From Pseudomonadota bacterium (lineage in GTDB: Bacteria > Myxococcota_A > Bradymonadia > UBA4248), in assembly GCA_017464085.1 (NCBI GenBank), contig JAFUEE010000156.1, positions 1 to 64,000 of the forward strand: a stretch of DNA of 64,000 nucleotides, in the 5' to 3' direction. Positions 32,372 to 62,850 of this stretch are shown in pieces; position 1 is the first letter of the stretch, and each line of letters starts with the position of its first letter. Made by a program: the position numbers and the translations under genes. Below the pieces are notes generated by a model. The model was given only the letters and a program-made list of their open reading frames with translations. It was not told the origin of the DNA and made no database searches.

Positions 32372-33619
32372 ATGGAAGTAAAAGAAATCAAACGCATGCA
32401 CATCTCAGAACTGCTCGAAAAAGCCGCCGAGATGAACATCGACAACGCCACAAACCTCAGCCGCCAGGAACTCGTCTATGAGCTGCTTCAGGCAGAGGCC
32501 AAACTCACTGGGGAGATATGGGACGAAGGCGTCCTCGAAACACTCCCGGAAGGCTTCGGTTTTCTGCGCTCCCTCGACAACAACTATCTTCCAAGCCCCG
32601 ATGACATCTATGTCTCCCCGGCGCAAATCAAACGCTTCAACCTCCATACCGGCGACACCGTCTATGGCAGAATCAGACCGCCGCACGAGAACGAAAAATT
32701 CTTCGCGCTCCTCCAGATCCACAAGATCAATTACGAAGATCCTGAAAAATCGCGCGAGAAAATCATCTTTGACAACCTCACGCCGCTCTATCCGCAGGAA
32801 CGCCTCGTCCTCGAGCACGATCCCATCAACTATTCCACGCGCGTCCTCGACATGCTCACGCCAATCGGCAAAGGACAGCGCGCGCTCATCGTCGCGCCGC
32901 CCCGCACAGGCAAAACTTACCTCCTCCAGAACATCGCGAACGCCATCAGCGAAAATCACCCCGAAGTCACGCTCATCGTCCTCCTCATCGACGAACGCCC
33001 CGAAGAAGTCACCGACATGATGCGCTCCGTCCAGGGCGAGGTCATCTCCTCGACATTCGACGAACAGGCTTCGCGCCATGTCCAGGTCGCTGAAATGGTC
33101 ATCGAAAAAGCAAAACGACTCGTCGAATACAAACATGATGTCGTCATCCTCCTCGACTCCATCACGAGACTCGCGCGCGCCTACAACACCGTCGTCCCTG
33201 CCTCCGGCAAAATCCTCTCCGGCGGCGTCGATTCAAACGCGCTCCACAAACCCAAACGCTTCTTTGGCGCCGCCCGCAACATCGAAGACGGCGGCTCGCT
33301 CACCATCATCTCCACTGCCCTAGTCGACACCGGCTCACGCATGGACGAAGTCATCTTCGAAGAATTCAAAGGCACCGGCAACTGCGAACTCCATCTCGAC
33401 CGAAAACTCATGGAACGCCGCACCTTCCCCTGCTTCGACATCGCAAAATCCGGCACTCGAAAAGAAGAACTCCTCCTCGACCCGCTCACGCTCAACCGCG
33501 TCTGGATCCTTCGACAGATCATCCAGAACCTCAACGGCGTCGATGCCATGCAGTTCCTACTCGACAAGCTCTCGCAGACCAAAACAAACGCCGAATTCCT
33601 CTCCTCCATGCAGATGTGA
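32372..33619 (+). CDS. rho: Transcription termination factor Rho
   Basis: The 415-residue product is the hexameric RNA-DNA helicase. Motifs are the N-terminal Rho_N helices ([15 protein letters not shown]), the RNA-binding cold-shock fold with EGFGFLRS, Walker A in [15 protein letters not shown], Walker B in [16 protein letters not shown], and the R-loop region [19 protein letters not shown]. It has the normal short form without a long insertion. The ATG lies after GGTAGATAAAC, a weak Shine-Dalgarno. Two hairpin repeats, the second followed by six T, lie directly downstream. Confidence 0.95.
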
Positions 33620-33877: not shown

Positions 33878-36800
33878 ATGAATTATAAACGCTATCTGAT
33901 CTCAGCACTCGCAATGGCAGCCGCTGCCGCAGGCACAGCAGGTCATGCACCGGCCGCATACGCAGACTCGCTCAGCGCTTCCGAAGGACTTTCTCCAATC
34001 GTATTCATCTTGTTGGATACCTCCGGATGTATGAACGAACTTTTTGAAACTGCAAACGACCAGGTCAAAAATAACACCCGACTCACCAAAGCCCTGGGCG
34101 AGCTCGTCGGCACCTCCAAAAACCTCACCACAGTCAACGGCAAGCCCCACCTCGTCCGCGCCGAAGATCCCAACGACCTCTTCTATCTGCCATACGCCAA
34201 ATGGACTTGCAGCGGCTCCACATGCAGCTACCAAAAAGCCCTCAAGGCCATCAAAGGCCAGACTGAACTCGCCAAACCAAATTTCTCAACCTCAAGCTCG
34301 ACAAGCCCGTCCGATTCCCGCTATGAAACCGCCTACAACTCAGACGGCATCATCCAGACCTACGCCAAGCTGATCAAATTCGGCTTCGCAGGCTTCGGCG
34401 TCGGCACCACCGGTTCGAGCGCCGCCAAAGACTCCCCGATCAAACTCGCTGCTCAGTCCGCCGGCGGTAACGTCGAAGGTGTCCTCCGCTTCACCACCAT
34501 CTGGGGTGAGGATTATCAAAGCACATCGGATATTGATACGCATTTATGGCTATATAATTATCCCACTGAATACATTGATGGCCAAAGAGTAACTAACAAC
34601 CATTTATATTATGCAAATAAATGTTCTGTCGGAAGTTGCATTTATAAAACAGTAAATGGACATAGCGCATGTACTGGCGTAGACGGTTGCTTAGATGTTG
34701 ATAATACATATCCATATGGAAATAGCTACTCAGTTAAACTTTATCCTAACCAAACCAAATGTCCTACTTATTATGGTTCTAGTAGTTATTATTATCAACC
34801 ATGTGAAGTTGGCGTTGAAAACATTGCGTTTGTCAGCACAAAATATATGAAACCAGGACAAACATTCAATTATCAAGTTTACACTTGGTATGTAAGAAAT
34901 TCAGAAAAAGGCTGGCGTGTTGAAGTTGCCTATCCAAATGATGAAGGTTGTACAGCTTCAACCATATATACATATAATCCGTCATCTCCAATTGGGAGTT
35001 CAGGTACTTATTATGATACAGCAACCGTAACATACCAAGGCAATAACCACTTTACAATTGCTAAAAAAGCGTCTGTCACAAGCACCGTTACTGAAGACGA
35101 CTATGGCAAACCAAACTATATTTATGGCTACGGTACCAATCGCTATTCGCTTACAAACGAAAACGGCATCACCTACGGTCGCGACCTCACAGCCTATAAA
35201 TATAAAAAATCAGATGACTGCACATTCGATATGGGCATGTGGAGCAGCAACCCTCTGGCAGCCGCGCCGCTCGTCTATCCGACCGTCTCAGACAAAGAAG
35301 AGATGATCGAGCAGAGCAACAACGCGCTCATCACCACTGTCCGCAGCTATCAGGCAACCTCCGCCACGCCCATCGGCGAATCTCTCGCCGATCTCTACTT
35401 CATGTTCGGCGGCGACGATATCTCCAAGACCGACCAAGGCCTCATCAAACAAAAGATGTCTGGCGGCCAGATCGCCAACGACGACTACTATGCCTGCCGC
35501 TCCAAAGCCGTCATCCTCATCTCCGACGGCGACCCCAACGGCTCCGGTCTGCACGGCACAGACGACGAAAACGAAAATCTCCACGGCCATTCCAAACAAG
35601 TCTGGTGGGATGCCTACCATCTCTTCAAAGCCGGCATCAAAGTCTATGTCGTCGGCTATGCCGAATTCGACGATGCCGCCCTCCAAAAAGTCACCGAAGA
35701 AAACTCTGTCGCCGCGACGCTCAACAAAACTGCATGGAAAGGCGGCACCTGCCGCAACCCCAAGACAAACGAAATCATCAACCCCAACAGCGAGTCTGAC
35801 TATCAGGCATTTATTAATGATAACACGCTGACCTATAAAGAGAAGATCTGCTTCTATAACGCTGCCGACAACACTGCCCTTCGCGCCGCAGTCGTCAACG
35901 CTCTCTCCGCAATGCTCCAGGGCGTCTATTCCAAGACAAAAGTCGCCACGACCACTGCGGTCGGCTATAAAAACAATTATAAAGTCAAAACAGAAAACAA
36001 TAAAAAGCAGATCGAATTCCGAAACGGTTATTACAGCCTCTATTCCGGCTACAGCGTCTCGCTCGCCCCAATCCGCAAGTCGCGCCTCGAACGCCAGGCC
36101 ATCATCTGCGACCACGAATCTGGCGAATTCTTCAACGATACCGAGCAGTATCTCGACATTGCCCATCGTCTCAAATGCCGTTTGTCCTCGTGCGACGTGT
36201 GGCGCGCTGCAACCGAAGATGAAGCACTCAATTCTGGTGGCACCATGATCGCAGGCATGAACTATAAGTTCAACGACGCAAGCACGCGCAAACGCGCCGG
36301 TTTCGATACCGATCCCGCCACCTGTGCGCCGCTCTCCACCCTCATGGATAACGCCGCCAACGTGACCAACACCTGCGTCGACAAGCGCTACATCTTTGCC
36401 GCCGATTATAAGGCAAAGGGCAACCGCAACGCGATCAGCACATTCCCGCGCTCGGCAAACGAACTCAACAAGAATTTCTCGACGAATGCCACGTCGTTCC
36501 TCACGGTCGATCCGATCAACAGCACCAATTTCGGCACAATCCCGCAATACAACTCCGCCAGCAATCTCAACTATTTCGTCACTCAGGCTGGCTCGACATG
36601 CAATACCGAAATGAACCGTTCGATCACCGAGCTCTACGGCAAGCCCAATTACATCCTCAGCCCGTATGAATGCGTCAACAACATGGACTGCGGCATGGAG
36701 GGCAACGACCTGCGCCTCTGCGACCTCGGCCGCTGCATCAGCGCAAGTCAATATAAATCGCGTATCGACAAGCTGTGTACCAACAATGCCGGTCTCAGCA

Positions 36801-38875
36801 GCGACGAAATCTGCATCAACGGCATGCGCCGCAAAAAATACACCAACTGCACGACGCACGCGCAATGCGGCGATGGCAAAGTCTGCCATGCCGGTCAATG
36901 CGCTTCAGGCACCGTCACTTCGTGTGACCTGCGCCAGTTCATCGCCTCCATGCCGTTGGGCGCCATCGAATATGCCACACCCACCCCGATCAACCCGCCC
37001 ACGCGCGCATACAGAAGCTACGACTACCGCAAGTTCAGCCAGAAATACTGGCAGCGCGACACCATGCTGATGGCCGGTGCAAACGACGGCCTGCTTCACG
37101 CCTTCATCCTGGGCGACAACACCAACCCCGAAGCCCTCAAAAATAAAGTCACCACAGGTGCTGCAAACGACTACACGGGCACGACATCCGCCGATGGCAC
37201 GACAATCTATAAAATCACAGACATGCCGGGCTATAAAGCGACCATTGATGCCTCAAACAAAGAGGGCGACGAACTCTGGGCCTATATGCCCAAGCACATG
37301 CTCATCAAGGCAAGCAAACTTACCGAATTCGGCCAGCAGACGATGCTCAACACCGCGCCAGTCTCCGCCGAAGTCAAGCTCCCCGGTTTCACGATCAACA
37401 ATGACTCCTGGCGCTCCGTCGTCGTCGGCGGCTTCCGCGATGGCGCGCGCGGCTACTACGCCATCGACGTCACCGACCCAGGGCATCCCATCGTCCTCTG
37501 GGAAATCGACCCCTTCTTCCGCGCAGACAGCACTGCAAGTAATGAAGATATCAGAAAGGTTACCGACAAGACCTGGACGCTTCAAGGTGCCGTCAGCAAC
37601 TTTAAGACAAACATCGAGAAAGAACCGTTCTATCTCATGGGCATGAGCTATGCTCAGCCCGTCATCACCAACATGCTTATCGGCAACCAGGTCGAGCCTG
37701 TCGCCATCCTCACGGGCGGCGAATCTACCGCAGAGACAAACACCGACAGCGATGCCATCGGCAAATCTCTCTATATCGTCCGCCTCTTCCCCAAAACGCC
37801 TTCAGACCTGCTCGTCAAAGCCTTCTACTTCGACAACCGCATCACCGGCACTCCCGCTGTCTATCCCAATAACTTCAACTCCGTCGCTCAAAACATCTAT
37901 GTCGGCGACAACAAGGGCAAGCTCTATCGCATTGTCGTCAGCGATTCCAACACCTCCAAATGGGGTTCCGTCAGCAAATACACATCTAACGGCATGACCA
38001 TCGAGCTCCCGGCCTTCGACCCCAGACAGGAATTTTTCGGAAAACCCTACACCGACACGACATCTGGCTATGATTTCTCAAAAATCTCGTTTGCCCCTGC
38101 CGTCGCGCTCTATACCGAAACTGGTGCCAAACCCGTCATTCAGCTTGCATTCGGCACCGGTACGAATGACAACTTCAACGTCATGAACACCGACCGCCAT
38201 TACTTCGCTTCATTCATCGATGTGCCCAAATCCGATGGCACGTATGAGCTCAACTACAACGCTTCCACCTATCAGTTCATGCCGACACTGATCGTTCTCA
38301 ATTCTCCAGAAAACCTCCAATCGCAGTCAGGCAAAATCACCGTCTATCGCAACTCGGTACCTTACAAAAACTCTAACGTCGCCCTTCCGGCACGTCAAAA
38401 ACTCACAGGCGCGCCGATCATTCACAACTTCGCGTCCTATTTCCCGAGCTTTATCGCCGATGCCGACAGCAATACGCAATGCCCGACAGGCGGTGCCGCC
38501 ATCTGGAAAATCTTGACCAGCTCATCTGTAACTGGCAAGCAGCGACACAACACGCTCTCAACGGGCATCCAGGCCAACGGCATGACCACAGATCCCTTCG
38601 CCAACTCCCCCTACATCCAGTTCAAATCAGGCACCAAAATCTATGGTCTCGAAATCACGAACCAGATGTTCTGCACAGGCAAAAATAAAAACTCTGTGCT
38701 CGCACCGCAGCTCGTCGCGCAGTCAGGCGTCGAAACAAACGATGATTTCTCAACGACTTCCACAAAGCGAAGCGTCCGCGATGACGCGCTCAGCGAAGTC
38801 GCCGCAGTCGCCATCAACCTCGAAGCCATCGAGCCTCAGGTCAATGTCTATTCCTGGGCGAGTGTTTATGAATAA
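33878..38875 (+). CDS. PilY1-like type IV pilus tip adhesin with VWA domain and an AT-rich inserted block
   Basis: I use the ATG at 33878 after AGGAGGAAACT, which gives 1665 residues with a Sec signal peptide ending near AAYADS. A VWA domain starts at about residue 40 with the MIDAS motif (FILLDTSGCMNEL) and resumes after about 430 with AVILISDGDPNGSG. Between them (residues about 211-428, bases 34510-35165) lies a block of strikingly lower GC and different codon use, with a DUF2135/YfaP-like look (SDIDTHLWLYNY, HLYYANKC, GCLDVDNTYPYGNSYSVKLYP). The C-terminal third (from about 1060, MLMAGANDGLLHAF) is the PilY1/PilC beta-propeller. Such proteins sit at the pilus tip and mediate adhesion and mechanosensing. 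No other pilus gene is in the window. A strong terminator follows. Confidence 0.88.
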   Translation: MNYKRYLISALAMAAAAAGTAGHAPAAYADSLSASEGLSPIVFILLDTSGCMNELFETANDQVKNNTRLTKALGELVGTSKNLTTVNGKPHLVRAEDPNDLFYLPYAKWTCSGSTCSYQKALKAIKGQTELAKPNFSTSSSTSPSDSRYETAYNSDGIIQTYAKLIKFGFAGFGVGTTGSSAAKDSPIKLAAQSAGGNVEGVLRFTTIWGEDYQSTSDIDTHLWLYNYPTEYIDGQRVTNNHLYYANKCSVGSCIYKTVNGHSACTGVDGCLDVDNTYPYGNSYSVKLYPNQTKCPTYYGSSSYYYQPCEVGVENIAFVSTKYMKPGQTFNYQVYTWYVRNSEKGWRVEVAYPNDEGCTASTIYTYNPSSPIGSSGTYYDTATVTYQGNNHFTIAKKASVTSTVTEDDYGKPNYIYGYGTNRYSLTNENGITYGRDLTAYKYKKSDDCTFDMGMWSSNPLAAAPLVYPTVSDKEEMIEQSNNALITTVRSYQATSATPIGESLADLYFMFGGDDISKTDQGLIKQKMSGGQIANDDYYACRSKAVILISDGDPNGSGLHGTDDENENLHGHSKQVWWDAYHLFKAGIKVYVVGYAEFDDAALQKVTEENSVAATLNKTAWKGGTCRNPKTNEIINPNSESDYQAFINDNTLTYKEKICFYNAADNTALRAAVVNALSAMLQGVYSKTKVATTTAVGYKNNYKVKTENNKKQIEFRNGYYSLYSGYSVSLAPIRKSRLERQAIICDHESGEFFNDTEQYLDIAHRLKCRLSSCDVWRAATEDEALNSGGTMIAGMNYKFNDASTRKRAGFDTDPATCAPLSTLMDNAANVTNTCVDKRYIFAADYKAKGNRNAISTFPRSANELNKNFSTNATSFLTVDPINSTNFGTIPQYNSASNLNYFVTQAGSTCNTEMNRSITELYGKPNYILSPYECVNNMDCGMEGNDLRLCDLGRCISASQYKSRIDKLCTNNAGLSSDEICINGMRRKKYTNCTTHAQCGDGKVCHAGQCASGTVTSCDLRQFIASMPLGAIEYATPTPINPPTRAYRSYDYRKFSQKYWQRDTMLMAGANDGLLHAFILGDNTNPEALKNKVTTGAANDYTGTTSADGTTIYKITDMPGYKATIDASNKEGDELWAYMPKHMLIKASKLTEFGQQTMLNTAPVSAEVKLPGFTINNDSWRSVVVGGFRDGARGYYAIDVTDPGHPIVLWEIDPFFRADSTASNEDIRKVTDKTWTLQGAVSNFKTNIEKEPFYLMGMSYAQPVITNMLIGNQVEPVAILTGGESTAETNTDSDAIGKSLYIVRLFPKTPSDLLVKAFYFDNRITGTPAVYPNNFNSVAQNIYVGDNKGKLYRIVVSDSNTSKWGSVSKYTSNGMTIELPAFDPRQEFFGKPYTDTTSGYDFSKISFAPAVALYTETGAKPVIQLAFGTGTNDNFNVMNTDRHYFASFIDVPKSDGTYELNYNASTYQFMPTLIVLNSPENLQSQSGKITVYRNSVPYKNSNVALPARQKLTGAPIIHNFASYFPSFIADADSNTQCPTGGAAIWKILTSSSVTGKQRHNTLSTGIQANGMTTDPFANSPYIQFKSGTKIYGLEITNQMFCTGKNKNSVLAPQLVAQSGVETNDDFSTTSTKRSVRDDALSEVAAVAINLEAIEPQVNVYSWASVYE

Positions 38876-38923: not shown

Positions 38924-38954
38924 AAAAAGCCTCAGGCCTCCCTGAGGCTTTTTT
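38924..38954 (+). terminator. Rho-independent terminator of the PilY1-like gene
   Basis: AAAGCCTCAGG, loop CCTC, CCTGAGGCTTT followed by TTT. Confidence 0.93.
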
Positions 38955-39084
38955 GTTTGTTCACCACCACAAGGCCGCATCAACCTCAAGCAGTTTCGCA
39001 TCACGATGCGAAAACATGAGCTTGGTCATGCAAGATTACTGTTCAACCGGAGTTCACGCTCCCACTTACCATAAGGATATTTCC

Positions 39085-40614
39085 GTGGAACCTGAAGAAA
39101 AAAACAACACAGGAGACGGGCTTGAGGCGAAGCAAAACGAAGCGAAACCTCAAAAACTCTCCGTCGGACAAGCCATTCTCAAAGGGTTAGAGGAAACGCT
39201 CGACACATTCAAAGCATTCCTGCATGCCCCGCGTGAGATTCTCGGCATCAATCTGATCAATATCTTCGAAGGCATGGCCTATTTTGGTATCCTGACATAC
39301 CTCATGCTCTTCATGACCAAAAACGTCGAGCTCTCCGACGTGCATGCCTCATGGGTCGTCAGCGGCTTCCTGATGCTCATCACGCTCTCACAGCTTTTCC
39401 TCGGCGGCGTTTCCGACAAAGTCGGCCCCAAGAAAATGCTCGGCATCACGATCATCATCCTGCTCATTTCGCGCATCATCCTTGGCAGTTCCGAACTCCT
39501 CTTTGCTTCATCCGGGACAGGCGTCGGCTCGATCTTCTTCTTTGTCGTATGCGGCTCCCTGCTCTGCGCTGCCCTGGCATACGGCGTATTCAATCCGGCC
39601 ATCTATTCGCTCACGCGCATGTACTCCGACAAAAAGACATCCGCCGTGTCCTATGCCATGCTCTATGCAGGCATGAACCTCGGCGCCTTCATCATCGGTC
39701 TGCTCCTGCCCATCATCCGAAGGGCGGCAGGCGATCAGACAGATGACGCCGGCAAAGTCATTTCACAAGGCCTTCTGCCCGGCACAAACGGCATTTCCGG
39801 CGCCATGATCTTCATTGCCGGCATCATGGTCATCGTCCTGATCTTATATGTCGTCTTCATCGCGCGTTCCAAAACAAAGCCGTTCATGGATCCCAAAGAG
39901 GAGAGCGAAGACAAGCCAAAGTCCAACGTGCATCTCTCTCTGCTCGACCGCATCAAGGCTCATCCGCTGGCAGACCTCAAGTTCGATTTCTTCATCTTTA
40001 TCCTCATTCCGGTCCAGACGCTCTTTGCCTATCAGAATATCCTGATCCCCAGCTATCTTGAACGCTGCTATACAGAATTTCCTACGATTTCTGGCAATTA
40101 CGAGACATTCAGCAATCTCAACCCGCTGATCGTCTTCATCAGCGCACCGGTCATCGCCGCACTCACCGCCAAGCAACCCGTCTACAAAATGATGATCATC
40201 GGCACGACTGTCATGGCCATCCCGACATTCCTGCTCTGTCTCGGCACGACACCGGCTACTTTCCTCACATTCATCCTCATCGGATCCATCGGAGAGTCGA
40301 TGTGGCAGCCGCGTTTCCTCCAGCATGTCACGCAAATCGCACCGAAAGAGAAAATCGGCGCCTATGTCGGCATTGCAAACCTGCCCTGGTTCATGACCAA
40401 ATTCATCGTCGGACTCTATGTCGGTTTCTTTATGGAGCGCTTCATTCCCGATCTCGCCAAACATCCCGAAGCGACACAGATGCCCGAGACCATGTGGCTC
40501 ATCTTCGCATGCATCGCCATGATTTCCCCGGTCGCGCTCTTCCTCGCGCGCAAATGGATGAATCCCAACGGCGACAAGCCTTCCGACGAAGTCCCCAGCG
40601 CCGACGAGCTTTGA
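39085..40614 (+). CDS. Major facilitator superfamily transporter (POT/peptide-transporter-like)
   Basis: The frame is open from 38953, but that start lies inside the preceding terminator; the GTG at 39085 has AAGGA at the right distance and gives 509 residues. A charged N-terminal tail (about 45 residues) precedes about 12 transmembrane segments with an MFS loop 2-3 signature (LGGVSDKVGPKKMLGI) and a charged central loop (PKEESEDKPK). The pairing of helices and the line AMLYAGMNLGAFIIGLLLP resemble the proton-dependent oligopeptide transporters, but the substrate is not certain. It stands alone, followed by a composite hairpin repeat. Confidence 0.8.
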   Translation: MEPEEKNNTGDGLEAKQNEAKPQKLSVGQAILKGLEETLDTFKAFLHAPREILGINLINIFEGMAYFGILTYLMLFMTKNVELSDVHASWVVSGFLMLITLSQLFLGGVSDKVGPKKMLGITIIILLISRIILGSSELLFASSGTGVGSIFFFVVCGSLLCAALAYGVFNPAIYSLTRMYSDKKTSAVSYAMLYAGMNLGAFIIGLLLPIIRRAAGDQTDDAGKVISQGLLPGTNGISGAMIFIAGIMVIVLILYVVFIARSKTKPFMDPKEESEDKPKSNVHLSLLDRIKAHPLADLKFDFFIFILIPVQTLFAYQNILIPSYLERCYTEFPTISGNYETFSNLNPLIVFISAPVIAALTAKQPVYKMMIIGTTVMAIPTFLLCLGTTPATFLTFILIGSIGESMWQPRFLQHVTQIAPKEKIGAYVGIANLPWFMTKFIVGLYVGFFMERFIPDLAKHPEATQMPETMWLIFACIAMISPVALFLARKWMNPNGDKPSDEVPSADEL

Positions 40615-42213: not shown

Positions 42214-45200
42214 TCAATGGGGATAATAGAGCGCCGCCGTCTCGGGATCATAGACCATCAGCGTCGAATTCGCTGAGGAATGGATATAATTATATCGCGT
42301 ATCTCCCGTCGAGAACCGGTTGAAATCGAACCCCTCTCGGACGGATTTGTAAGCTGTCAGCGAGATATACAGCCGGCTGGAATGATCTTCCGCCCAATGA
42401 TAGACGCCCTTCGGAAATTCAAACGACGTCGCAGTCCCTGGGAGATAGGCCTGGTTCACGAGGACCATCCCTGAAGAGCGGTAATCGCGCATGACAAGCG
42501 AATAGAAATCGACATTCTGCGGATGTTCGATCGTCCAAGAAATCACGCCCTGCGCGAGCACGTCGTCGTAGGGTTTCGTGATGAAGACGGGAATCGGCGC
42601 CGCCGGCCCGACTTCCAGAGGCGTTTCCGATGGAAGCGTGTCATACTCATAAAAGACCGTCGCCGGATACCCCATGTTCGTATAGGCGCCGACTGAATAG
42701 GCAAAATGCGCGTCTGCAATCGTGTCGCGAAGCGGCGGCATATTGGTGATGACGACGAGATCCGTCTTCGACTGCCCGGACATAAAGCCGCCGATATACC
42801 CTTCATCCCCGAAGTCGAGATACGCAGAACCCGATACGACGTTCGGCCCAGAATGGAGCGGCGGATCGAGCAGCTTGACGCTCTGCGTCTGATTGAGCGG
42901 TATCGGGCATTCCAGATGATTCACGATGTCCACGCCGTCATACACAAACTGATGCCGTTTGACGCCGATATATCGCGGCAAGAGCTCCCCGGTCACCTTG
43001 TTGTAGAGACCGCATACAAGCGCAAGCGCCACATCGCCTTTGCGCGCCTGCACCTTGTATTCCGCGCCTTCTTCCGTGAGCAGATAGACATCATCCTGCT
43101 GATAATAAGGCGCATACGGGCTCAGCGTTGACTGCATGACAACACCTGCCTTGACGAGATTCGGATCAGAAATCAGTTCCTCTTTGCCAAAGCTGCCGAC
43201 AGTGCCCCGGAAATATGCCGGTTTCGGCGTGTATTCGATCGTCACGTCAATCGGATTGATCATATCGCCATCCGAAGGCGGCGGAGGTGGCGGCGGATCC
43301 TCGGAATCACTCGCATCATTCGCATGCCAGTCCTCGAGAAAAAGCGTGATGACTGAAGCATTGATCGGCTGAAGCGTATTGCATGAATGTTCTGGCGCGC
43401 ATGCCGTCACGATCTGCGCCCCCTGAAGATCATCCAGGAAAAAGGACACGCGTCCATTGGCATCCGTCGTGCCGGTCACTGCCGTATCGAGGCTGCCCCC
43501 GACATAGACTGTCGCATGCTCGATCGGGACTGCCGTATCGACTGTGAGCACGGTCACATGAAGCTGCCCGCTGATCACTCCGCCTGATGCGCTCGTGTTG
43601 ATGCCGGTCGGATCAAAGTAAGAGATTGCTGTCTCCGCACAGACATTGCCATCTGCGCCACGAATTTCGAGCTTCGCTTCGCCCTTGTCATGCGCCGGCG
43701 CAACAAACGTCATCGTATTGGCCGCATCGATCGTAACATCCGTAATCTGCTCCCCATCAAGCCAGAGCGTCATGCCCGCACCGAACCCGCTCCCGAAGAC
43801 GTGCATGACCGTGCCGCCCAGAATAACCGACTGATCCGGAGAGACGCCGGTCACCGCCACTGGGGAGTCATACGAAAACATGACATCAGAGCGCTTATCC
43901 GCACGTCCTTGAACGACCCTGATTGGAACCTCCCCATTGCCTGCAGGCACCTCGACCTCTGCAAGCCCCTCTGACACGACTCGGACATGCGAAGCCTCAT
44001 GACCACCAAAGAAAACGCGAAGCGCATCGCCAAATCCGGAACCGGCAAGCGAAACAACGCTGCCGGCAGCGCCATGCGCAGGCTCGACTGAAGCCACCTC
44101 CGGGACGACGATGTATTCATATACATCTTTCAGCGTCATCTCCCCGGAAGACACATCCACGCGCCCTGCAGTTCCTGGAGGCGCTGTGACGAGACATGCC
44201 GTCTCCGTGCACGACTTGACCTGCGCCCTGGATGCGCCAAAGCTGATGTTCATGCGGTCTGACATCCCGATGCCCGATATCCGCACCTCATTGCCCCCCT
44301 TGACAGATCCCAGATCAGGGCTGACAGAAAACAGCTTCTGCCCTGCACCTGCCGCATAATAGTGAAGCGCCTGCTCAAGACGGTACTGGCGATGACCATC
44401 ATACACAAGGATATCATAGCTTCCGGCGGGCAGCTCGGGCGCATCAAACGTCACTGTTTCTGCACTGACAAATTCCGGAGAGATGACGGCCTGCCCGATG
44501 CGCAAATGCACGTCTTCGGAAAATCCGCTCCCGACAAGCTTCACACGGGGGCGCTTCCCAACCTGGATAGCCGCAGGCTCGGCGTATGCCGGTTCAAGAC
44601 GCGGCAGCACGCGAATCACATCCTCAACCACGGCATGGCTGCTTCCATTCGCGACATAAAGCGTAGTCTCCCCAGGCGTTTCGAGCACGAGATTGCCAAC
44701 CATGCGCGTTTCGGAAGCCAAGGTCAGATCCGTCATGCCGATGCTCCCGGCACCATCGGAAAAATAAACGCTTGTATGCGCATCAAACCCGTTGCCCGAA
44801 AGCGTAATCTCGGAAAGCTCCCCGGCAACCACGACATCTGGAGACACCGCCTTGATCCCGACATTCTCAGTATAGCAGAAGGCGTCTTTCAAGCTCAGCC
44901 GTTCCTCCCCCTGCGTCCACACGAGATCGACACACCCGATTTTTCCTGGCGGCACGACCGCGCGCACGACATTCGAATTGACGTAGGTCTGCGATGGCGC
45001 ACGAATGCTTCCGAACTGCGCGATTCCACCCGGCTCCAATGCCGTGCCGTGCACGCGGACCTCGTAACCGCCGCGCACATCCCCGGATGCAGGGGAGACA
45101 AGTTCCACGCCCAGGACTTCCGGGGTCACCACTGCACCGCCGCCGCCACCGCCCTGACTGCCTGGATCTTCAGGAAAGCCAGGTTCCGGTCCCGGTATCA

Positions 45201-45402
45201 CTCCGCCTGAACCGCCCGGACGCTGCGACTCCCCGCCAGGATTCTGCGGGTCTTCCGGATCCGTCGGCTGCGATGGATGTTCAGGCTCAGGCTCTTCCTC
45301 AAATTTGAACACATCATTCACATCAGGCATACAGCCGAACACCGACATGCTCATGAACGCCACACACAAGGCCAGCGTATATTTCGCGTTTTTTTTGCGC
45401 AT
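42214..45402 (-). CDS. IPT/TIG-repeat surface lipoprotein
   Basis: I take the ATG at 45402 (MRKKNAKYTLALCVAFMSMSVF) because it opens a signal sequence ending in lipobox VFGC; the longer open frame is not supported. The 1062-residue product has a Pro/Gly-rich spacer after the lipid anchor (PEPEHPSQPTDPEDPQNPGG), then about six IPT/TIG immunoglobulin-like domains (motifs VSPASGDVRGGYEVRVHG, SPDLGSVKGGNEVRISG, VEPAHGAAGSVVSLAGSGFG), and a C-terminal region with a carboxypeptidase-regulatory-like segment (HVTVLTVDTAVPIEHATVYV). TIG repeats are found in large adhesive surface proteins. It appears monocistronic, followed by a hairpin-repeat terminator. Confidence 0.85.
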   Translation of the reverse strand: MRKKNAKYTLALCVAFMSMSVFGCMPDVNDVFKFEEEPEPEHPSQPTDPEDPQNPGGESQRPGGSGGVIPGPEPGFPEDPGSQGGGGGGAVVTPEVLGVELVSPASGDVRGGYEVRVHGTALEPGGIAQFGSIRAPSQTYVNSNVVRAVVPPGKIGCVDLVWTQGEERLSLKDAFCYTENVGIKAVSPDVVVAGELSEITLSGNGFDAHTSVYFSDGAGSIGMTDLTLASETRMVGNLVLETPGETTLYVANGSSHAVVEDVIRVLPRLEPAYAEPAAIQVGKRPRVKLVGSGFSEDVHLRIGQAVISPEFVSAETVTFDAPELPAGSYDILVYDGHRQYRLEQALHYYAAGAGQKLFSVSPDLGSVKGGNEVRISGIGMSDRMNISFGASRAQVKSCTETACLVTAPPGTAGRVDVSSGEMTLKDVYEYIVVPEVASVEPAHGAAGSVVSLAGSGFGDALRVFFGGHEASHVRVVSEGLAEVEVPAGNGEVPIRVVQGRADKRSDVMFSYDSPVAVTGVSPDQSVILGGTVMHVFGSGFGAGMTLWLDGEQITDVTIDAANTMTFVAPAHDKGEAKLEIRGADGNVCAETAISYFDPTGINTSASGGVISGQLHVTVLTVDTAVPIEHATVYVGGSLDTAVTGTTDANGRVSFFLDDLQGAQIVTACAPEHSCNTLQPINASVITLFLEDWHANDASDSEDPPPPPPPSDGDMINPIDVTIEYTPKPAYFRGTVGSFGKEELISDPNLVKAGVVMQSTLSPYAPYYQQDDVYLLTEEGAEYKVQARKGDVALALVCGLYNKVTGELLPRYIGVKRHQFVYDGVDIVNHLECPIPLNQTQSVKLLDPPLHSGPNVVSGSAYLDFGDEGYIGGFMSGQSKTDLVVITNMPPLRDTIADAHFAYSVGAYTNMGYPATVFYEYDTLPSETPLEVGPAAPIPVFITKPYDDVLAQGVISWTIEHPQNVDFYSLVMRDYRSSGMVLVNQAYLPGTATSFEFPKGVYHWAEDHSSRLYISLTAYKSVREGFDFNRFSTGDTRYNYIHSSANSTLMVYDPETAALYYPH

Positions 45403-45678
45403 ATTTGGAACTCTCCAGACAAAACACAAGACCGGCATCAGCCGTCCAGCTTTTATAACCAAATCGGCCGATAAAATCGACAGAAAGCCCACATATTTCC
45501 CCGCTTTGGCAAACCGGATGACATCAAGCGCCTAACGCCCCTGATAACCACTCTATATCAGGCGCTGCGCCACCAACATGGATATGAAATGTGCGAAGCA
45601 AAACCTGGGTACGCTATGCTTCAGAAAACGCCTATAGGGCTGAATAATGACTGCCCTCAAGATAATTCAAAAAAATTA

Positions 45679-59972: not shown

Positions 59973-61265
59973 CTATCTTCTTTTTAACGGCTCCTTCTCT
60001 GCGATATCTTCTACTTTTGTTCCTGTAAACATATCTTCGCTGTTTTCTGGTACAACCCAGGATTTAGGATAATAACTAAACTTTGATGCGCCATTAAACA
60101 TCTCGTCCATATCTGTGACCTTTGACACATTCCACTTTTCCAGCGGCTGGTTGAAAGAGCTAGCACCATAAAACATCCGGAACATATCTGCGACCTTTGA
60201 CACATCCCACTTTTCCAGCGGCTGATTGAAGGAGGAGGCTTCAAAAAACATCCAGCTCATATCTGTGACATTTGACACATCCCACTTTTCCAGCGGCTGA
60301 TTGAAGGGGGAGGCATAAGCAAACATCCAGCTCATATCTGTGACATTTGACACATCCCACTTTTCCAGCGGCTGATTGAAGGAGGAGGCATAAGCAAACA
60401 TATATGACATATCTGTGACGTTTGATACATTCCACTTTTCCAGCGGCTGATTGAATGATTTGGCAGCCCAAAACATGCCGCTCATATTTGTGACCTTTGA
60501 CACATCCCACTTTTCCAGCGGCTGATTGAAAGATTCTGCACCAAAAAACATGTCGATCATATTTGTGACCTTTGATACATTCCACTTTTCAAGCGGCTGA
60601 TTGAAGGATTCGGCGCCACTAAACATGTATGACATATTCTTGACATGACTCAGATCTGGGACTTCATCAGGTATGATTTCCAACTTACGGCAATCTGCTG
60701 CGAATGCATACATACTTTTCCACGAGATATCTCCCCAACTGTCAATAGATTTCAACGCCACACTGCTATCATCCTTGCCTGACGATAAATCACATCTAAA
60801 ATCTTTATCTTTGTCATTGGGCGTGCAGGCGTCTTCATCATTTGGATGGCGAGCACATAAATATAAACCAGGTATCTCGCCACGTACTGAGATTTGATGT
60901 GTTCCTGTATTCGGCTTGTATATACATGCATGATTATCCGATAAACCAGTAAATTCGTATTCTCCATCACTCTCACAATCTAAATCATACAATATAGTTT
61001 GTTTTCCATCTAATTTATTCATTGAAATGATAATCTTAACATCTTCATCATTTGATTTTTTATCAATATCCGTCTCATCATCTGACTCTTCATCAATATC
61101 CGTTGTAATCGTAAATTTAAACGGTTTTCTGTTCAAAGAATCATTGTTTTGCACAGTAACATCAGCCTCTGTCGATTGTTTTTCAGGTAAATTCCGCTTC
61201 CTTGTACAACCATAAGAAAAAGCTACCACTAAAATAATCCATCCAATAAAAAGACTTCGCTTCAT
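59973..61265 (-). CDS. DUF285 (BspA-family) repeat lipoprotein
   Basis: The 430-residue product has a signal sequence with lipobox FSYGC, an acidic low-complexity region (residues about 50-85, DEESDDETDIDKKSNDED), and seven 25-residue repeats of the DUF285 type with FNQPLEKWxVSxVTxM and MFxxA as core. The DNA repeats with a 75-base period (the line CAGCGGCTGATTGAA recurs). Such proteins are surface lipoproteins of gut and mollicute bacteria. The GC content is well below the core genes, which supports acquisition. Start ATG at 61265 after GAGGTTAGT. Repeat number may vary between strains by slippage. Confidence 0.85.
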   Translation of the reverse strand: MKRSLFIGWIILVVAFSYGCTRKRNLPEKQSTEADVTVQNNDSLNRKPFKFTITTDIDEESDDETDIDKKSNDEDVKIIISMNKLDGKQTILYDLDCESDGEYEFTGLSDNHACIYKPNTGTHQISVRGEIPGLYLCARHPNDEDACTPNDKDKDFRCDLSSGKDDSSVALKSIDSWGDISWKSMYAFAADCRKLEIIPDEVPDLSHVKNMSYMFSGAESFNQPLEKWNVSKVTNMIDMFFGAESFNQPLEKWDVSKVTNMSGMFWAAKSFNQPLEKWNVSNVTDMSYMFAYASSFNQPLEKWDVSNVTDMSWMFAYASPFNQPLEKWDVSNVTDMSWMFFEASSFNQPLEKWDVSKVADMFRMFYGASSFNQPLEKWNVSKVTDMDEMFNGASKFSYYPKSWVVPENSEDMFTGTKVEDIAEKEPLKRR

Positions 61266-61296
61266 GATACTAACCTCCTCTATTTACTTATGAATT

Positions 61297-62850
61297 CTAA
61301 CCAATCACCCACCGTTCGATCGTTCTCTTATCATTCTCAAAATTCACGCCGACTTTGACGATCTTCTTATCTCCGGCTTCATACTGAATGGCATAGCCCT
61401 TATCATTGATTTGTTTCAATGCTTCTTCAGCAGTGCCGTCGAGCTTGAATTCAAATAAATAAATTGTATCCTCAGTTTCGATGAGTGCATCACAACGGCC
61501 GGCAGCACTGCATTGTTCTGTGCGCACAGAATATTCAGATGCCAGTGTAAAAATGAGATAAAATATGGTCTTATAATGATCTTCATCCTGTTTTTCGGCA
61601 TTGTATGGAATCGAACTGAAGAATGAACGTAAAAGCGTCATGGCCGCATCGATATCGTGGTTGCGAATCGCACGCAGTGTTTTTTGTATATAAGAATTAT
61701 TCTCTGTGGCCGATTTGGATGTATAATAGGGTGCAAGACCTTTAATAAAACTTACGCGTACTTCTTCATTGGGAAATCCCAGAATATAATCATAGCCATC
61801 AAATTTCTTAATCGTGACATACCCACTTTGATACAACACAGGAATTGGTGTTTCGGCATGTTCCACGGGTACATAAAAATCCATCTCACTCGCAGCAAAT
61901 CCTTCCAGAGCTTCTGGACGCAATGTATATTGACTTAATACTTTTGTCAGATGCGTCGGAGTTCCAGTCGAAAACCAATAATTATATAATTCTTTGTCAG
62001 CCAGGCAATTCAATAAACTGAATGGATTGTAAATATCTGGGCAATTTTTAGTAAAATGATAACCATCATATTTGCGTTTGATACGCAATAAAGCTGTATT
62101 CACCGTGACATTCATCGCTTTGGCCAGATTCTCGACTTCGGGTGCAAGCTGTGTGACAATTTCATCCCGCGTAAAACCACAAATCGCCGCATACTCATTA
62201 TCCATCGTAATCGTCTTCAGGTTATTGAGTTCGCTGAATATACTCAATTGGCTGAATTTGCTGATGCCTGTGATAAATACAAACTGCAGTTTGCTGTCCA
62301 GATCCTTGATGGGACTGTAAAAATCGCGCAACTGTTGACGAACAGATGCCATGAGTTTTTCGTCATGCATGGTATCCAAAATCGGCGCGTCGTATTCATC
62401 GAACAGTAGCACGACTTTTTGGCCGGTTTGCGCATGCGCACGAAGCACCAAATTTTTCATTCGTATTCCGTACTGATTTTTCGCCGTACCATCCCTGGTT
62501 CCATAGATCTCCTCATAGTCAGTCAAAATGCTGTCCAGCAGATACCCAACATCTTCAACTGAAGCTATCCGCTTTAAGCTCAGCGAAAAATGCAGCACAG
62601 GATACTGAACCCAGTCTTTTTCGAGCTGTTCAATCGCCAGTCCTTCAAAAAGATCCTTGCGCCCTTCAAAATACGACCGCAGTGTCGATACGAGCAAAGA
62701 TTTGCCAAACCGTCGAGGACGCGAAAGAAAAACGTAGTTATTGTTTTTTACAAGACGGTAAACTAATTCCGTTTTATCGACATAAACCGCACTGCGCTCT
62801 CGAAGCTTTTCAAATGTCTGAATTCCGATCGGAAAAAAACGTTCATCCAT
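61297..62850 (-). CDS. AAA-ATPase-like / PD-(D/E)XK nuclease protein (DUF1703 type)
   Basis: The 517-residue product belongs to the AAA_ATPase-like plus DUF1703 family that is frequent in gut bacteria. It shows the family start FPIGIQTFEKLRERSAVYVDKTELVY, the P-loop-like SRPRRFGKSLL, Walker B LLFDEYDAPI, and the C-terminal nuclease core AGRCDALIETEDTIYLFEFKL with D, E and K as catalytic residues. The function is not established; a link with mobile elements is suspected. It lies 31 bases upstream of the DUF285 gene in the same direction, so they may share a promoter. GC is low relative to the core genes. Confidence 0.88.
   Translation of the reverse strand: MDERFFPIGIQTFEKLRERSAVYVDKTELVYRLVKNNNYVFLSRPRRFGKSLLVSTLRSYFEGRKDLFEGLAIEQLEKDWVQYPVLHFSLSLKRIASVEDVGYLLDSILTDYEEIYGTRDGTAKNQYGIRMKNLVLRAHAQTGQKVVLLFDEYDAPILDTMHDEKLMASVRQQLRDFYSPIKDLDSKLQFVFITGISKFSQLSIFSELNNLKTITMDNEYAAICGFTRDEIVTQLAPEVENLAKAMNVTVNTALLRIKRKYDGYHFTKNCPDIYNPFSLLNCLADKELYNYWFSTGTPTHLTKVLSQYTLRPEALEGFAASEMDFYVPVEHAETPIPVLYQSGYVTIKKFDGYDYILGFPNEEVRVSFIKGLAPYYTSKSATENNSYIQKTLRAIRNHDIDAAMTLLRSFFSSIPYNAEKQDEDHYKTIFYLIFTLASEYSVRTEQCSAAGRCDALIETEDTIYLFEFKLDGTAEEALKQINDKGYAIQYEAGDKKIVKVGVNFENDKRTIERWVIG

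Follow-up and report, generated by a model that had tools for sequence, protein, structure and literature searches.

A fast-evolving, AT-rich module related to a phage protein domain lies within the VWA-like domain of a PilY1-like protein in Myxococcota

The window, a stretch of 64,000 nucleotides from a draft genome (GenBank assembly GCA_017464085.1, contig JAFUEE010000156.1), carries a gene for a large PilY1-like protein between a rho gene and a gene for an MFS-type transporter (Table 1). The C-terminal half of the predicted protein matched the PilY1 C-terminal beta-propeller structure 3hx6, with E = 1.2e-7 for the window protein alone and E = 1.2e-18 for the family profile; the Pfam model T4P_PilY1 (PF05567) matched four of five relatives, and the window protein itself was unmatched. 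By its propeller match the gene is a predicted PilY1-like gene, as a first-pass annotation of this DNA had proposed. The genome encodes a pilT-type ATPase that scored over the cut-off and ten prepilin-like sequences; no linked minor pilin genes were found at the pilY1 gene, and there was no prepilin match on this contig. Unlinked pilY1 genes are known, so that linkage to minor pilin genes is not required for membership (PMC13190605). A large protein with several IPT/TIG domains is encoded nearby (42214-45492).

Table 1. Features of the PilY1-like locus in window coordinates.
Feature	Position	Strand	Remarks
rho gene, upstream neighbor	32372..33619	+	Named from sequence; syntenic in G005
PilY1-like gene, signal-peptide-like N terminus	33878..38875	+	ORF open from 33791; likelier start is ATG at 33878 behind GGAGG
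MIDAS-like strand of VWA-like domain	34004..34036	+	FILLDTSGCMN; DTSGSM in relatives
Nested module	34427..35140	+	KDSPIK ... IYGYGTN, edges approximate; homologous to PHROG 1735 C-terminal domain
AT-rich segment inside module	34511..35125	+	GC 0.35, GC3 0.23
Cys387	34949..34951	+	Sole module cysteine invariant in module-bearing homologs
Gradual 3' shoulder	35126..35236	+	GC 0.46; extends beyond module into VWA-like sequence
Cys477, behind module	35219..35221	+	Invariant in module-bearing homologs, absent there in module-less ones
Second part of VWA-like domain	35366..35539	+	MIDAS-like Thr (TPIG, 35366) and Asp (SDGDP, in 35516-35539)
Stretch matching PilY1 C-terminal beta-propeller structure 3hx6	37256..37510	+	Residues 1156-1240; sequence match
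MFS-type transporter gene, downstream neighbor	38953..40614	+	Named from sequence; adjoins pilY1 in G002, G005, G004 and G001c

The Pfam VWA model (PF00092) scored the window protein with E = 0.08 and 13.6 bits, below the cut-off of 23.8, and it also missed the relatives that have no module. The order of MIDAS motifs, DTSG[SC]M ... TPIG ... [ST]DGxP, was seen in all seven proteins compared; the general order is DxSxS ... T ... D, and the window protein reads DTSGC where most relatives read DTSGS. A model of myxobacterial CglB matched four of seven relatives with E-values down to 9e-4, and the first strand resembled the VWA domain of the type IV pilus PilB (E = 0.03). Since the Pfam match falls below the cut-off, and since the MIDAS order and the likeness to CglB and PilB suggest a possible kinship, the domain is termed VWA-like. 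The cysteine of the DTSGC motif (34004-34036), at which module-bearing relatives read DTSGS, might change metal binding or make a disulfide.

Within this open, GC-rich gene the first-pass annotation had noted an abrupt block of low GC content, and the block is real. The AT segment with the highest score spans 34512-35125 (GC 0.35); at about 34511, GC falls from 0.55-0.61 to 0.32-0.37. On the codon level the segment comprises residues 241-445, where GC3 is 0.23 compared to approximately 0.70 in the flanks; its score of about 66 stands against a maximum of 12.6 over 1000 codon shuffles. Amino-acid bias was ruled out as the source of the low GC3, since the residues encoded by the block, combined with the codon usage of the flanks, predict a GC3 of 0.67. 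The block is the top intragenic AT segment among the 381 ORFs in a 0.65 Mb sample of the same genome (score 65.5; runners-up, 33.0 and 28.1). The 5' edge is abrupt and the 3' edge is gradual; the reading frame, an ORF of 1694 amino acids, continues uninterrupted across the block and both edges, and a search of the edges for repeats, as recombination scars, found just short, chance-like pairs. Elsewhere in the window, an AT-rich region at 393-2440 holds an MmeI-type restriction-modification gene that is split into two overlapping ORFs, so that positions 2-74 of the target recognition domain model fall in one and positions 80-207 in the other, with no homopolymer run in the inspected overlap; of two AT-rich ORFs at 59973-62850, one encodes a protein with DUF285 repeats and the other a predicted AAA-ATPase that carries a PD-(D/E)XK nuclease domain.

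The AT-rich block makes up most of a roughly 240-residue module that lies nested behind the MIDAS-like strand and ahead of the remainder of the VWA-like domain, in agreement with the earlier placement of an extra module behind this strand. The same domain was first met in a phage protein during a scan of viral contigs. Matches to PHROG 1735 reached E = 5.7e-9 in the window protein and E = 2.3e-16 in the homolog from G004 (one of the relatives treated below), and module and phage domain aligned with 99.9% over 144 columns (hhalign). Homology between the module and the C-terminal domain of the PHROG 1735 proteins runs from IKxxxxxxGGxVxGVLRF to IYG; these proteins differ in being large phage proteins with no match to VWA or propeller, so that only the domain is shared, and their version is compact, at about 180 residues, and lacks the long insertions and the cysteines of the PilY1 module. 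The phage version has relatives in 427 phage records from many hosts; L141:1654-3801 is a PHROG 1735 protein bearing the C-terminal domain. The earlier label "DUF2135-like" holds as a remote kinship: the module aligned with DUF2135 members at 92% (hhalign, E = 5e-7 over 45 columns) and the phage domain at 97% over 74 columns, and the pattern L.W...DxD...GGxLDxD...(V)EN is shared, with its order kept, by DUF2135 (PF09906) and by the myxococcal proteins from L145 and L146. The Pfam DUF2135 model itself does not match the PilY1 module; it found no match in the block, in its homologs, or here in the genome search, and Pfam as a whole yielded nothing above noise on the module. Judged by these profile comparisons, the module belongs to the superfamily of the PHROG 1735 C-terminal domain and, remotely, of DUF2135. 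A literature search on DUF2135/YfaP and on intragenic low-GC mosaics in adhesins yielded nothing useful.

Across 284 Myxococcota genomes, the module profile found matches in this genus only, and the myxococcal cellular relatives of the module stand further off than the phage domain. The PilY1 modules, of which five complete examples from four species were compared, form one clade (support 94/94); their placement among the phage sequences has moderate support (89/89) in a tree drawn with a midpoint root, and the G005 module occupies a very long branch. The block contains seven cysteines, and homologous modules contain between 2 and 11. The conservation pattern of Cys387 and Cys477 (Table 1) makes it possible that these two residues pair and would tie the module to the VWA-like domain. 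Structure models were of low quality (mean pLDDT 51 and 37), too low for a comparison of folds, and no PDB match was significant (best match 2qng, E = 0.07).

Nine genomes of the order were compared, here designated by G numbers, with G000 for the genome of the window. A homologous module occupies the same site in G005, in G004, in the two tandem paralogs G001a and G001b, and in part in the fragment G001c; it is present in every readable same-genus ortholog at the locus. The rho-pilY1-MFS synteny is complete in G005, and the pilY1-MFS pair is retained in G004, G001c, and G002. The tandem PilY1-like pair of G001 (L032:2029-11991) carries the module in both copies and an AT dip in one only. The nearest relative is G002 (identities of 99.5% for Rho, 78% for the PilY1 C terminus, and 83% for the MFS protein), whose assembly is without the first three quarters of the pilY1 gene. 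The VWA-like domain is uninterrupted in relatives of the same family; in G003, G006, and G007 a shorter loop takes the place of the module, as the first-pass annotation had anticipated for some relatives. The G003 gene sits away from the rho locus and is therefore not a clean empty-site ortholog; it may have lost the module, or it may be a different paralog. Its loop at the junction is AT-rich (GC3 0.21 over 34 codons). The PilY1-like gene of G003 (L034) is divided by an in-frame TAA or a frame change, with two overlapping ORFs.

Between species, identity is 22-35% in the module. It reaches 35-47% in the preceding region, 42-51% over what remains of the VWA-like domain, and 39-43% over the C-terminal half; divergence is faster in the module than around it, yet its homology is still clear. 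Block and flanks do not diverge equally, so that the outcome named in the first pass as contradicting its reading is not observed. Its forward expectation, conserved flanks around a variable or absent block, nevertheless fails at the species level too, because the flanks diverge as well and the block is found in every readable ortholog of the genus.

The AT dip recurs in homologs. The gene-wide segment of lowest GC3 falls on the module in G000 (score 66.5), G005 (40.3), G004 (24.9), and G001a (17.5), and all four scores exceed the shuffle maxima of 12-13; the dip in G004 is visible in GC3 and not in whole-base GC, and G001b carries the module with no AT dip. Synonymous sites should be saturated at this divergence, so that a shared donor composition could not have survived; if so, either each lineage would have imported the segment anew, or the dip is maintained.

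Low GC3 and fast evolution coincide elsewhere in the lineage as well. The third-strongest intragenic AT segment of the ORF sample lies in a RecB-like gene (L105:4074-7841, named from its sequence), as an AT-rich, fast-evolving segment at residues 185-333. Its GC3 is low in orthologs, with a score above the shuffles in G005 and values below the gene averages in G001 and G006, and it is the most divergent part of the gene in G001 and G005 (28-42% vs. 57-63% identity). The G002 assembly has no match for residues 179-465 of the RecB-like protein. Across 161 windows from seven other genes, GC3 correlates with conservation (Spearman coefficient 0.46), with the caveat that neighboring windows are not independent. 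As the RecB-like gene and this correlation indicate, segments that combine low GC3 with fast evolution are characteristic of the lineage. Equally variable windows elsewhere average a GC3 of 0.50, as opposed to 0.23 in the PilY1 block; the lineage trend explains the block incompletely, hypervariability is insufficient as the sole cause of the dip, and the block represents an extreme case.

The first-pass annotation had called the block foreign and swapped. An AT-rich cassette that was recently imported or is repeatedly swapped, with recombination in conserved, GC-rich edges and AT-rich core alleles from a shared pool that vary adhesion or antigenicity, is an unlikely explanation. It would account for the sharp 5' edge, which lies within the module just past a conserved strand, directly after LRFTxIW and at almost the same position in G000 and G005, and for the module core being the most divergent part; the phages that carry the related domains are AT-rich (GC of the domain 0.26-0.45), and the G002, G001c, and G004 assemblies break in or near the pilY1 gene, as expected from strain variation. 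However, relatives of the same genus, including the syntenic ortholog in G005, carry a homologous and usually AT-rich module, with the dip also seen in three more genes, each from another species, and their single clade argues against separate imports from different phage groups, which are unsupported. A DNA and protein search of the genome, a draft of approximately 94% completeness, found no second copy; the block itself, searched against phages and plasmids, gave no match, and a mobile donor was rejected on this basis. Composition edge and domain edge do not coincide either: homology of the module begins at about 34427, 84 bases upstream of the composition switch, and its first 28 codons are host-like (GC3 0.71), which is unexpected under recent insertion of the whole module. 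The gradual 3' edge, the edges without repeats, and the same pattern in the RecB-like gene, which has no part in adhesion, also speak against a swapped cassette. So far as species-level evidence reaches, a fresh foreign cassette is not supported. In a related reading, which appears rather unlikely, the pilus-tip adhesins of the genus would have acquired a domain from phages, and lineages would go on exchanging its AT-rich core via conserved GC-rich edges; if true, the binding tip would vary with no need for a store of silent copies.

It is quite improbable that the AT-rich codons are themselves under selection, for example by slowing translation until the nested domain has folded and before the VWA-like domain is completed, or for a reason on the mRNA level. 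The dip resides in codon choice and not in the residues, and its location is shared by several orthologs even though their divergence is saturated, as such selection would predict; yet the module of G001b does without it, and the RecB-like gene, with no known nested module, dips too. An assembly chimera or contamination, conceivable in a draft assembly that comprises 199 contigs and has an estimated contamination of 3.8%, is hardly credible and was rejected, given the single open frame over both edges and the homologs from independent assemblies that span them.

Probably, then, the module was gained once and was subsequently inherited and diversified as a surface-exposed binding module, and is not a recent foreign cassette. 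The gain would predate the diversification of this Myxococcota genus or fall in its early phase, with inheritance at the rho-pilY1-MFS locus thereafter; the low GC would be the extreme of a lineage trend rather than a mark left by a recent donor, and the AT dip would stem from weak constraint or fast change. The N-terminal domain of PilY1 has been modeled at the ultimate pilus tip (PMC13190605). Placed in a loop of the VWA-like domain, the module would protrude at the outermost part of a PilY1-type pilus tip; it is most simply seen as a contact or binding module, most likely a surface-exposed partner beside the VWA, to which a disulfide between Cys387 and Cys477 perhaps anchors it.

Among known systems, those myxobacterial PilY1 proteins that carry an N-terminal vWFA domain (classes 1.3-1.7; PMC13190605, 2026) share the C-terminal propeller, the N-terminal VWA-like domain, and many cysteines; they differ from the window protein, whose VWA-like domain is split by the module, and the text of this survey has no mention of a vWFA insertion, of DUF2135, or of phage relatives. 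Pseudomonas aeruginosa PilY1 is alike in its propeller (the 3hx6 sequence match) and in a VWA domain with MIDAS; it differs in its DxSxS motif, which is DTSGC in the window protein, and the available part of its description contains no such nested module. In P. aeruginosa PilY1, the VWA domain and its cysteines are linked to adhesion and force sensing (PMC11891296).

A phage-related module inside the VWA-like domain constitutes a new PilY1 architecture, located in a domain that other PilY1 proteins use for adhesion and force sensing. For genome scans the locus calls for caution: a sharp intragenic AT-rich block alone is no proof of foreign origin; it may recur in orthologs and mark fast-evolving segments.
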